From assembly GCA_030740435.1 (NCBI GenBank), contig JASLXG010000225.1, positions 1-34,723 on the forward strand: DNA of 34,723 nt. Reading direction: 5' to 3'. The notes under the pieces were generated by a model, which worked only from the letters and a program-made list of their open reading frames with translations, ran no database searches and was not told where the DNA came from. Within the stretch, counting starts at the first letter, position 1. Each line of letters begins with the position of its first letter. A program made the position numbers and the translations under genes. This stretch comes from Alphaproteobacteria bacterium (GTDB lineage Bacteria; Pseudomonadota; Alphaproteobacteria; UBA2966). Shown in pieces: positions 21,925-32,593 of the stretch.

Positions 21925-22035
21925 GGGCATCCTCGAAAAGGCAAACCGGCGGCAACGGCGGGGCGCAAAGTTTCGGGCCCTGGGCGTCAGGCACGCCTTC
22001 GCAAGACGCCGCCAGGGTGGCCGGACTGCCGAAAG
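21925..22035 (+). promoter_or_regulatory. Cyclic-di-GMP class I (GEMM-I) riboswitch candidate
   Basis: The segment shows the core of the class I aptamer in order. GGCAAACC (21940-21947) leads to a short helix closed by a GCAA tetraloop (21952-21955), then GGGGCGCAAAG (21960-21970) and CGGGCCC. Next comes a long imperfect stem, CCCTGG-GCGTC (21978-21988) with GACGC-CG-CCAGGG (22005-22017), and finally GGTGGCCGGACTGCCGA. In the reference Vc2 aptamer the matching blocks are GGCAAACC, a GAAA tetraloop, GGGACGCAAAGCC and AGGUAGCGGGGUUACCGA. The 3' end of the aptamer is followed at once by AGGAG and the GTG start of the small gene at 22046. No T-run follows, so control of translation is the simplest model. 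A covariance-model search would settle it. Confidence 0.8.
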
Positions 22036-23771: not shown

Positions 23772-24626
23772 ATGGAAAGGCTGAGCAGCGAAATCGTCGC
23801 CGAGGGGTTCTTTTTTCTCGAAGGGCCGCGCTGGCATGAAGGGCGGCTGTGGTTCTCCGACATGATGGGCGGCGTGGTTTATGCCCTGGATGGCGAAGGC
23901 CGGTCCGAGGCCATCGTGGCCGTGCCCGAGCGGCCCTCGGGGCTCGGTTTCCTGCCCGACGGCACGCCCTTGGTGGTCTCCATGCGCGATCGCTGCCTCT
24001 ATCGTATCGAAGCCGGCGCCTTGGCGCTGCATGCCGATCTCTCCGATCTGGCGGCCGGCGATACCAATGACATGGTGGTCGACGCCCAGGGCCGTGCCTA
24101 CATTGGCAACATGGGCTTCGATTATTGGCAGGACCCCGATGCCTTCGTGCCCAGCACGGTCATCGCCGTCGAGCCCGACGGCGCGGCCCGCATTGCCGCG
24201 GACGGTTTCGATTTTCTCAACGGCATGGCAATCGATAGCAATACCGGGCGTCTGATCGTCGCCGAATCCTACGGCAAGCGACTCAAGGCGCTGGACATCG
24301 AGGCCGACGGTAGGCTCGCCAACCCGTGCACTTTCGCCGACTTGGGCGACCACACACCTGACGGTATCTGCCTTGATGCCGAAGGTGCGGTCTGGGTCGC
24401 CGCCTACCTGCAAGGCGTCTTTCTGCGGGTCCAGGAAGGCGGCGCCATCAGCTGCCTGGTCACCCCGACGGCTCGGCGCGCCGTGGCCTGCCAGCTTGGC
24501 GGCGACGACGGCCGCACGCTTTATTGCCTGACGTCCTCGGGCGGTTCGGAGCGCCGCCGGGCGGCCGAAAAGGGTGGCCGCGTCGAGAGTCTGCGTGTTG
24601 CGGTGCCCGGGGCGGGCTCGCCTTAA
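23772..24626 (+). CDS. SMP-30/gluconolactonase/LRE family protein
   Basis: The 284-residue product is a six-bladed beta-propeller sugar-lactone lactonase-like protein. The N-terminus has E-G-P-R-W-H, whose Glu binds the metal ion, then W-F-S-D-M. Further metal ligands are in N-G-M-A-I-D (about residue 152) and T-P-D-G-I-C-L-D (about 196). ATG 23772 is preceded by AGGGTGG at five bases; a GTG nine bases upstream lacks a site. The stop overlaps that of aroQ on the other strand by two bases. The physiological lactone is not known. Confidence 0.88.
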   Translation: MERLSSEIVAEGFFFLEGPRWHEGRLWFSDMMGGVVYALDGEGRSEAIVAVPERPSGLGFLPDGTPLVVSMRDRCLYRIEAGALALHADLSDLAAGDTNDMVVDAQGRAYIGNMGFDYWQDPDAFVPSTVIAVEPDGAARIAADGFDFLNGMAIDSNTGRLIVAESYGKRLKALDIEADGRLANPCTFADLGDHTPDGICLDAEGAVWVAAYLQGVFLRVQEGGAISCLVTPTARRAVACQLGGDDGRTLYCLTSSGGSERRRAAEKGGRVESLRVAVPGAGSP

Positions 24627-25075
24627 GCGCTTTCCCGCCTCTCGGCGATCACGCCGAGCAGGGCGTCGAGCCCGACCAGGTAGGAGTTCGCCCCCAGCCC
24701 GGCCACCACGCCGACCGCCTCACCCGAGGTCACGGGTTCGATGCCACGGGCCTCGGTGTTGCTCATGTGGACCTCGACGTAGGGCAGCCGCACCGCCCGC
24801 AAACAATCGCGCAGCGCATAGCCGGCGTGGGAGAATCCGGCCGGGTTCATCAGCAGGCCGTCGACGCCGGCCTCGGCCGCGGCATAGATGCGGTCCATGG
24901 CCAGGCCTTCGACGTTGCTTTGGAAGAACTCGACCGAGCAGCCCCGCTCGGCCGCCCGCGCCGCCACCAGGGCGTTGACCTCTTCGAGCGTCCGGGTGCC
25001 GTAGAATTCCGGCTCGCGCTTGCCCAGCCAGTTCATGTTGGCGCCGTTCAGCACCAGGATGGCGATCGAGGTTAT
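24623..25075 (-). CDS. aroQ: Type II 3-dehydroquinate dehydratase, apparent ATA start
   Basis: The product (150 residues from ATA 25075) catalyses the third step of the shikimate pathway. Family motifs are L-V-L-N-G-A-N-M-N-W-L-G-K-R-E-P with Arg20 and the catalytic Tyr25 in F-Y-G, F-F-Q-S-N-V-E-G, M-N-P-A-G-F-S-H, and E-V-H-M-S-N with His103. N-x-x-A-R-G replaces the more usual N-V-H-x-R-E. No ATG, GTG or TTG lies before the first strand. An AAAGG is seven bases upstream of ATA, and ATA overlaps the TAA of the selenoprotein gene (ATAA), as ATG often overlaps TGA. A GTG at 25054 would remove the first strand. It provides precursor for the trpEG pathway. Confidence 0.85.
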   Translation of the reverse strand: MTSIAILVLNGANMNWLGKREPEFYGTRTLEEVNALVAARAAERGCSVEFFQSNVEGLAMDRIYAAAEAGVDGLLMNPAGFSHAGYALRDCLRAVRLPYVEVHMSNTEARGIEPVTSGEAVGVVAGLGANSYLVGLDALLGVIAERRESA

Positions 25076-25548
25076 GACTTGGCCTTTCGCGATTCGTAGA
25101 ACTTGATCAGGCTGACCACGTCGGCGGCGTCGATGCGGCCCAAGGGGCCCGAGCTGTAGGACGAGGTGACGACACGGCCGTCGCCGCCGACCACGAACTC
25201 CGAGGGCTGGATGAAGTTGCGTTTCTCCTCCCACCAGGCGCCGATCTTGTCGGCGTCCTCGCGCTTCACCCCCTCGGCCACGGCAAAGGGCAGGCCGTCG
25301 GCCACCTCGCGCGCCTTGTCGCCGCTATCGACGCTGGCCGCCGCGACGGCGGCAACGATGCCCTGCAGCTCGTCATGGATCTTGGCGAAGCCGTCCAACT
25401 GACGGCGGCAGTAGGGTCACCAGTGGCCGCGATAGAAGAGGATGACGCGGTAGTTGCCCGCCAGGCCGCCGGGCAGATTCAAGCTTCCGCCGCCGACCAG
25501 GTCGAGGGTGAGCTCGGGAAAGACGTCGCCGGTATTGAGTTTGGCCAT
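25072..25548 (-). CDS. Peroxiredoxin-like (AhpC/TSA) selenoprotein, in-frame TGA = Sec44
   Basis: From ATG 25548 (GGGGGAG nine bases upstream) the frame runs 158 codons with one internal TGA at 25419-25417. The protein reads ...V-I-L-F-Y-R-G-H-W-U-P-Y-C-R-R-Q-L... In the Cys-containing relatives this is F-Y-R-G-x-W-C-P-Y-C, so the TGA stands exactly at the first redox residue and Cys47 is the partner. The thioredoxin-fold context continues undisturbed on both sides, with F-V-V-G-G-D-G-R-V near residue 120. A stem-loop follows the TGA at the right distance. A plain pseudogene is unlikely because the frame is otherwise intact and a downstream gene is coupled to it. Standard gene calling would start at a later ATG (25398) and lose the active site. 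Confidence 0.88.
25390..25419 (-). promoter_or_regulatory. Candidate bacterial SECIS element with its UGA
   Basis: On the minus strand, 16 nt after the UGA comes the loop AGTTG, enclosed by GCCGTC and GACGGC (perfect 6-bp stem). A UGA-to-loop distance of at least 16 nt and a G among the first two loop bases meet the known rules for bacterial SECIS elements. Confidence 0.65.
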
Positions 25549-25655
25549 CGTTGCCGCTCCCCCAAAAGGGTCGATCTGGCGGCTATCTTAGCGCTTCGTC
25601 CGCGCCAGGCAACGATGACCTTGACGCTTGCCCGCCGAATACCAGGTCTTTGCTC

Positions 25656-31424: not shown

Positions 31425-31910
31425 ATGAAAAGAGTCTCTACACTATTTGCCGTCCTGGCTGCCGTGGTTGCCTTGTGGAGCGCCGAAACCAGGGCCGCGG
31501 ATACCATGTACAAGATCGGCGAACTTACCGTGGTGCAACCCTGGGCCCGGGCCACGGCCAAGCTGGCCAAGACGGGCGCCGCTTTCCTGACCATCAAAAA
31601 CGGCGGCGCCAAGGCCGACCGGCTGGTGGCAGTGCGAAGTACGCTGGCCAAGAAGACAGAACTGCACCAGAGCCTGATGGAAGACGGTCTCATGAAGATG
31701 CGGCCGGCGGGCGCCATCGAGGTGCCGGCCGGCGGCATGGCGATGCTCAAGCCGGGCGGCTATCACGTCATGTTCATGGGCCTCAAGGCGCCGCTGAAGA
31801 TGGGCGAGATGATCAAGCTCACCCTGGTCTTCGAAAAAGCCGGCGAGATCGAGATCATGGCCCATGTCATGAAGGCTGGCGCCATGGGCGGCATGAAAAT
31901 GAAGCACTAG
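31425..31910 (+). CDS. Periplasmic copper chaperone PCu(A)C
   Basis: The 161-residue protein has a signal peptide (1-24, E-T-R-A) and the full Cu(I) site of the family: His81, Met92, His114 and Met116. This fits the H(M)-x10-M-x21-H-x-M pattern exactly. An additional Met/His tail (G-A-M-G-G-M-K-M-K-H) may hold another copper ion. PCuAC hands copper to the CuA or CuB centre of cytochrome oxidase together with SCO1, encoded next. The ATG follows GAAGGA. A longer frame upstream to 31347 would bury the signal peptide and is rejected. Confidence 0.93.
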   Translation: MKRVSTLFAVLAAVVALWSAETRAADTMYKIGELTVVQPWARATAKLAKTGAAFLTIKNGGAKADRLVAVRSTLAKKTELHQSLMEDGLMKMRPAGAIEVPAGGMAMLKPGGYHVMFMGLKAPLKMGEMIKLTLVFEKAGEIEIMAHVMKAGAMGGMKMKH

Positions 31911-31993
31911 CGCCCAATCCCCGAGATCCCAAGCCGGGCCGCCTGGTATTCCTGCCGGCCGGCCTGGCGGGGTCAAAGCAACGGATCCCGACC

Positions 31994-32593
31994 ATGCAAC
32001 GCCGTTACGTCTTCGCCGGCCTGGCCATCGTGCTGGCGCTTGCCGGCCTCATGAGCTGGAAAACCTGGCAAAGACTAGACCAGCCCCCCGCCGTCACCGC
32101 GCCTGTGCCCGTGGCCCCGGAATTCAGCCTCGTCAACCAGGACGGCCGAAGCGTCAGCGAAACCGACTTCCGCGACCGCCAGCTGCTGGTCTTCTTCGGC
32201 TACGTCTATTGCCCCGACGTCTGTCCCACCACCATGTCGACGGTGACGGCGGCGCTCGAGCAAATGGGCCCGCAGGCTGCCGGGATACAGCCGCTCTTTA
32301 TCAGCGTCGATCCCCAGCGCGACACGCCGGAAGTGCTGAAATCCTTCATCGAGAATTTCCATCCTTCGATCGTCGGGCTGACCGGTAGTCCCGAACAGAT
32401 CGCGGCCATCGCCAAGTCCTACCACGCCTATTACATGAAGGTGATCGAGGGCGAGGAAGAGGCCGACGAGGGCTATCTGATGTACCACATCTCGAACCTC
32501 TACCTGATGGCGCCCGGCGGCAAATTCCTGGCTCGATTCCCTCACGACATAGCGCCCGAGGCGCTGGCGGCCGGCTTGCGGAAATATCTTTAA
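31994..32593 (+). CDS. SCO1/SenC copper metallochaperone
   Basis: The 199-residue protein has an N-terminal membrane anchor (about 6-22) and a periplasmic thioredoxin fold. It has the copper ligands Cys73 and Cys77 in Y-C-P-D-V-C-P and His165 in Y-H-I-S. V-D-P-Q-R-D-T-P-E is the standard SCO motif. It assembles or reduces the CuA site of cytochrome c oxidase subunit II. The spacing of 83 bp to PCuAC and the common direction argue for one transcript. The stop overlaps the convergent DUF4336 gene. Confidence 0.94.
   Translation: MQRRYVFAGLAIVLALAGLMSWKTWQRLDQPPAVTAPVPVAPEFSLVNQDGRSVSETDFRDRQLLVFFGYVYCPDVCPTTMSTVTAALEQMGPQAAGIQPLFISVDPQRDTPEVLKSFIENFHPSIVGLTGSPEQIAAIAKSYHAYYMKVIEGEEEADEGYLMYHISNLYLMAPGGKFLARFPHDIAPEALAAGLRKYL

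Follow-up and report, generated by a model that had tools for sequence, protein, structure and literature searches.

An open reading frame on the minus strand of the window, by which we mean the whole 34,723-nt stretch of DNA analyzed here, is interrupted by a TGA codon, and this raises the question whether the frame is a gene broken at this position or one that reads through it. Our analysis indicates that it is very probably a real gene, encoding a small redox protein into whose active site selenocysteine (Sec) is inserted. We assign a probability of roughly 95% to a selenoprotein gene in which UGA 44 would be decoded by SelB and tRNA-Sec, yielding a UxxC product of the Prx/thioredoxin fold. 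As far as this estimate draws on sequence data, it combines a conserved TGA, an exchange between Sec and Cys, a covarying SECIS element, a complete Sec machinery and the predicted fold.

A Prx-like gene with a single in-frame TGA

The features of the gene are as follows:

25072–25548, minus strand: probable Sec-containing Prx-like gene (158 aa, ATG to TAA), a UxxC redoxin of PF00578
25417–25419, minus strand: in-frame TGA, probably read as selenocysteine (residue 44); TGA in 25 genomes, TGC/TGT in distant homologues
25408–25410, minus strand: TGC encoding Cys47, the putative resolving residue, in the alignment column of the peroxidatic Cys of peroxiredoxins
25557–25563, minus strand: ribosome-binding-like GGGGGAG upstream of the Prx-like ATG, read directly from the sequence

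Between positions 25548 and 25072 the TGA at 25419–25417 is the sole internal stop, and the frame ends with TAA at 25074–25072. The sequence-only reading of this DNA had placed the TGA exactly at the first Cys of a W-C-P-Y-C motif with the second Cys retained, and this assignment holds: the TGA is directly followed by CCC TAC TGC, so that the product reads MAKLNTGDVFPELTLDLVGGGSLNLPGGLAGNYRVILFYRGHW-U-PYCRRQLDGF... and contains the motif W-U-P-Y-C. The resulting UxxC motif, U44-P-Y-C47, comprises all Sec and Cys residues of the 158-residue protein. The read-through protein matches PF00578 (AhpC-TSA) with 58.3 bits (cut-off 26; positions 2–122 of 124) and Redoxin PF08534 with 31.7 bits. None of the NCBIfam models reaches its cut-off for this protein, and hence the family is without a curated name there; routine gene calling would overlook the full gene, and an annotated product would probably end at the active site. 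The earlier description of the gene as ‘unannotated’ is only indirectly supported by these NCBIfam cut-offs.

Conservation of the TGA and exchange with cysteine

A further 24 alphaproteobacterial genomes contain the Prx-like gene with TGA at this codon, which gives 25 distinct TGA genes in total, each with exactly one TGA. Four near relatives from the genus and the family share it, with an identity of 83% within the genus (on NZDS01000030.1, ‘Rhodospirillaceae bacterium’) and of 53–55% within the family; a contig-end copy of the TGA form is also present in a more distant genome. In a class-wide sample of 385 genomes the TGA form was observed in 21, the window's own included, and the Cys form in one. 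Homologues with TGC or TGT at the Sec codon occur in Chloroflexota, Thermomicrobiota and Actinomycetota as well as in two genomes of the same class. Eleven Cys homologues carry their Cys at the same alignment column as the TGA, and the residue exchanged for Sec is Cys, never Trp or Arg. In a tree built from 35 sequences, of which 24 are Sec and 11 Cys, a branch with a support of 93/80 has all Sec forms on the same side. Plasmid records yielded distant homologues only (identity below 60%), and no match to the TGA–SECIS pattern was found in viral contigs.

The TGA might still be a sequencing or assembly error, or mark a recent pseudogene, with TGC or TGT as the true codon, since the window's genome is a 4.5-Mb draft in 236 contigs and TGA is one base away from either codon. 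However, the same TGA is conserved in 24 other independently assembled genomes from many families, and the multiple frame breaks in relatives that the sequence-only reading had considered are absent: no break other than the TGA lies between the start and the own stop of any of these 24 copies, which speaks against both error and decay. In addition, the dN/dS value after the TGA is low (0.27 for the same-genus pair and 0.05–0.38 for six other pairs). The codons 3' of the TGA are, judged by these substitution ratios, under purifying selection, so that translation in the Prx-like frame continues beyond the TGA. As the hairpin following the TGA covaries as well (see below), sequencing error, pseudogene and chance open frame are excluded for practical purposes.

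A covarying hairpin downstream of the TGA

Immediately 3' of the codon lies a further feature:

25390–25406, minus strand: putative bacterial SECIS hairpin with a stem of 6 bp; its loop, AGUUG, starts 16 nt after the UGA

The hairpin GCCGUC-AGUUG-GACGGC has a loop of 5 nt, and its stem begins 10 nt after the UGA. It had initially been described as a 6-bp stem 16 nt after the UGA with a G at the loop start; the stem length stands, while the distance of 16 nt applies to the loop and the G is the second loop base. Published limits for bacterial SECIS elements, as quoted in PMC13188914, are a loop of 3–9 nt, a stem of 4–16 bp, a G at loop position 1 or 2, a UGA-to-loop distance of 16–37 nt and an MFE of at most -7.5 kcal/mol. 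With a loop of 5 nt, a stem of 6 bp, a distance of 16 nt and -11.3 kcal/mol for 44 nt, the hairpin falls within all of them. As a single-sequence observation the hairpin is nevertheless weak: 22% of the TGA triplets in the window are accompanied by a stem that fits the SECIS geometry with 6 bp or more when G-U pairs are included, or 4.4% if only Watson–Crick pairs are counted, and the single-sequence z-score of -1.05 is unremarkable, for which reason we did not use it as evidence.

It is the comparison between sequences that makes the hairpin significant. Across the 25 Sec genes 96.4% of the stem cells are paired, and three of the six pairs changed on both sides (C-G to U-A; G-C to A-U; U-A to G-U and A-U). 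We counted 14 cells with two-sided changes compared to 4.8 in shuffles. The covariation score of 0.343 is higher than in all 500 shuffles (mean 0.178) and in every slid version of the stem; owing to the relatedness of the sequences the shuffle count should not be read as a probability, but the slid controls, in which this relatedness is preserved, score far lower. Moreover, some of the stem changes alter amino acids, so that codon conservation alone is no explanation. Against the hairpin, three Sec genes have a U-U or U-C mismatch in one pair of the stem, one gene has a G-A and one an A-G. All 25 Sec genes use TTG or TTA for the Leu in the loop (TTG in 23, TTA in two), compared to 44 of 302 among their other Leu codons (24 genes counted). 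In the Cys homologues, the stem is missing and this Leu codon is freely CTC, CTG, CTT or TTG.

These data also bear on the view that the UGA is a true stop, ending a short N-terminal peptide, and that a separate protein starts at TTG 25398, with CAGTTG being a start and not a loop. The TTG, kept in 23 of the 25 Sec genes, would open a frame of 108 aa; however, a single Prx domain would thereby be deprived of its active site and its first strands, TTA takes the place of TTG in two relatives, the stem covaries on both sides, the homologues are one continuous Cys protein and selB co-occurs with the gene. We consider a true stop very improbable. The original proposal of a peroxiredoxin-like selenoprotein with a UxxC active site is supported by the PF00578 match, the conserved TGA, the Cys homologues and the covarying hairpin.

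Selenocysteine machinery and further candidate selenoproteins

If the UGA is decoded as Sec, the genome should contain selA, selB, selC and selD, as had been predicted from the window alone, and we detected all four of them. A full-length selB (412 bits) is immediately preceded by selA (561 bits), and the tRNA-Sec gene selC (73.5 bits, anticodon TCA) is directly followed by selD (419 bits). The loss of selB or selC that had been named as an argument against a selenoprotein is thus not observed. Among the 24 other TGA genomes selB was found in all and tRNA-Sec in 23; in the 12 genomes tested that are without the TGA form, selB was present in three, and both selB and tRNA-Sec are missing from the one Cys carrier tested. 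The genome in which tRNA-Sec was not detected (G376) contains selB and the TGA gene, and an assembly loss is probable there, or else a divergent tRNA-Sec. In 7 of the 24 genomes, belonging to four families, the Prx-like gene and selB share a contig and are no more than about 5 kb apart, and in one of the genomes (G126) it adjoins tRNA-Sec and selB.

A reading of the UGA as Trp, Cys or Arg, by a general change of the code or by near-cognate suppression, would yield the full-length protein by read-through alone, too. Against this stand the presence of selA, selB, selC and selD, homologues exchanging the residue to Cys but never to Trp or Arg, a UGA-specific hairpin that is kept, and the restriction to one TGA in each of the 25 genes. 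Such a reading appears extremely improbable, and decoding as Sec is favored.

The Prx-like gene is probably not the only Sec client. Directly downstream of selC–selD in the same genome (L169:1259–2476, contig C164) we found a PrdB/GrdB-type gene matching the GRDB family PF07355, which is split by one TGA and reads IUPFCTRAVGGLAHYLE around it (UPFC); it is a likely second selenoprotein. Matches to the formate dehydrogenase alpha subunit in the window's genome were below the cut-off and none had an internal stop, so Sec is seemingly not kept there for formate dehydrogenase. A deiodinase-like gene (PF00837) was not found in the own genome by a search run without a positive control, which is not evidence of absence. 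Beside selAB of another genome (G311) there is a deiodinase-like gene (L167:7020–7694, PF00837 with 81 bits) with one in-frame TGA (SYTUPPF), and adjoining ORFs beside selAB of G126 (L166:3582–4448) resemble, by eye, a split copy of this gene. Two members of the window genome's family (G002 and G004) contain selB and tRNA-Sec and no close copy of the Prx-like gene, and therefore other Sec clients probably exist in them.

Genomic neighborhood of the Prx-like gene

The following feature lies directly downstream of the Prx-like gene:

24623–25075, minus strand: aroQ-type gene (class II dehydroquinase; PF01220 with 142 bits), exact start uncertain

This aroQ neighbor is common to the window's genome and the same-genus relative. 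Its position behind the Prx-like gene on the same strand agrees with the sequence-only reading; the overlap with the stop codon, from which a live operon had been deduced, is weak. The aroQ frame is open across the junction, and an overlap with the TAA would need a non-standard ATA start at 25075–25073. The nearest standard starts do not give this overlap: GTG 25054 falls within the protein's first strand, and GTG 25234 lies far inside the upstream gene. At 25052–25075, in this genome and in the same-genus relative, a GTC-ATA overlaps the upstream stop (ATAA / ATAG); the aroQ start might be a rare ATA coupled to that stop. Elsewhere in the window we observed a c-di-GMP-I riboswitch (21930–22033, plus strand, 56.3 bits at a gathering score of 35) and a SCO1/SenC-domain protein (31475–32593, plus strand, 156.5 bits), which is a second thioredoxin-fold gene in the window.

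Predicted structure and proposed mechanism

The AlphaFold model of the Prx-like protein has a pLDDT of 95.3 and is a peroxiredoxin fold by structural comparison: it matches 3hjp (Sulfolobus Bcp4; Z 21.2, rmsd 2.1, 152 aligned) and 6q5v (Z 19.4, rmsd 2.5, 155 aligned), and Z values to typical Prx and AhpE are about 19–20. A phmmer search of the single sequence against the PDB gave no match; a profile search did. In peroxiredoxins a T-x-x-C motif holds the peroxidatic Cys, and the strand that precedes F-x-I/V-D carries an active-site Arg. When the profile is aligned to the Prx6-type 6q5v, C47 occupies the column of the peroxidatic Cys, U44 that of the Thr of T-x-x-C, and P115 that of the active-site Arg. 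With Sec44 in place of the Thr and Pro115 in place of the Arg the protein is not a canonical peroxiredoxin, and the missing Arg leaves peroxidase activity not assured.

One could nonetheless regard the product as a selenoprotein that acts as an ordinary peroxide-reducing peroxiredoxin and not as a UxxC enzyme of the thiol:disulfide type, given the fold match to peroxiredoxins (Z up to 21) and Cys47 on the peroxidatic Cys. The replaced Thr of TxxC, Pro115 at the Arg position and the fact that no NCBIfam peroxiredoxin equivalog reaches its cut-off argue against it, and we regard an ordinary peroxiredoxin as rather unlikely. For a UxxC oxidoreductase we propose the following course. The hairpin just 3' of UGA 44 would direct Sec insertion by SelB and tRNA-Sec, giving a predicted cytoplasmic Prx-like selenoprotein that acts as a thiol/selenol oxidoreductase. 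Most likely, the Sec44 selenolate would attack a peroxide or disulfide, Cys47 would then close a Sec44–Cys47 selenenylsulfide, and a donor of the thioredoxin or glutathione type would reduce it again. As U44 and C47 are the only available residues, selenenylsulfide catalysis seems the simplest reading. Sec insertion in vivo, cytoplasmic location, reaction, substrate and electron donor are what we infer here.

Relation to known selenoproteins

The kind of protein is not new: UxxC Prx-like selenoproteins of PF00578 from marine bacteria have been known since 2004–2008, with 22 sequences from the Sargasso Sea (PMC1088965) and 225 sequences of ‘Prx-like 1’ in the Global Ocean Sampling set (PMC2398784), and they are included in a 2026 review (PMC13188914). 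A literature text search for the motif WUPYC retrieved no relevant paper. In an earlier description, formate dehydrogenase was the sole use of Sec in Alphaproteobacteria (PMC1794560). We tentatively propose, at somewhat less than even confidence, that the genes form a distinct unnamed alphaproteobacterial clade with the motif YRGHWUPYCRRQL, gained once from a Cys ancestor, and that together with PrdB-like and deiodinase-like selenoproteins they make up a selenium redox set near selAB/selCD, which may sustain the Sec trait without a Sec formate dehydrogenase. The selenoprotein clade that our data add is well supported and extends over many families of Alphaproteobacteria, and the SECIS covariation together with the 25 TGA sequences is enough for a model that would recover the clade automatically.

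Compared to known systems, PrxU (NF040737, TxxU) has the same fold, but its Sec is at the peroxidatic position, whereas the window's protein has Cys there and Sec three residues earlier, and scores 13.6 bits against the NF040737 cut-off of 270. Deiodinase-like bacterial selenoproteins (PF00837) are alike in a Prx-like fold and an in-frame TGA but are a different family. Cys-containing AhpC/TSA redoxins with YRGHWCPYC from Chloroflexota and Actinomycetota are full-length homologues (36–43% identity in the best segment) with Cys at the Sec position, without a TGA and without the SECIS stem. Prx-like 3 (PF08534) shares UxxC and a related fold, but the window's protein fits PF00578 clearly better (58.3 versus 31.7 bits). 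Closest are Prx-like 1 and the Prx-like thiol:disulfide oxidoreductase, which share PF00578, UxxC, bacterial origin, marine abundance and Cys homologues (PMC1088965, PMC2398784, PMC13188914); the window's protein is placed with them by domain and motif only, and its clade differs from Prx-like 1 in being alphaproteobacterial with the motif given above.
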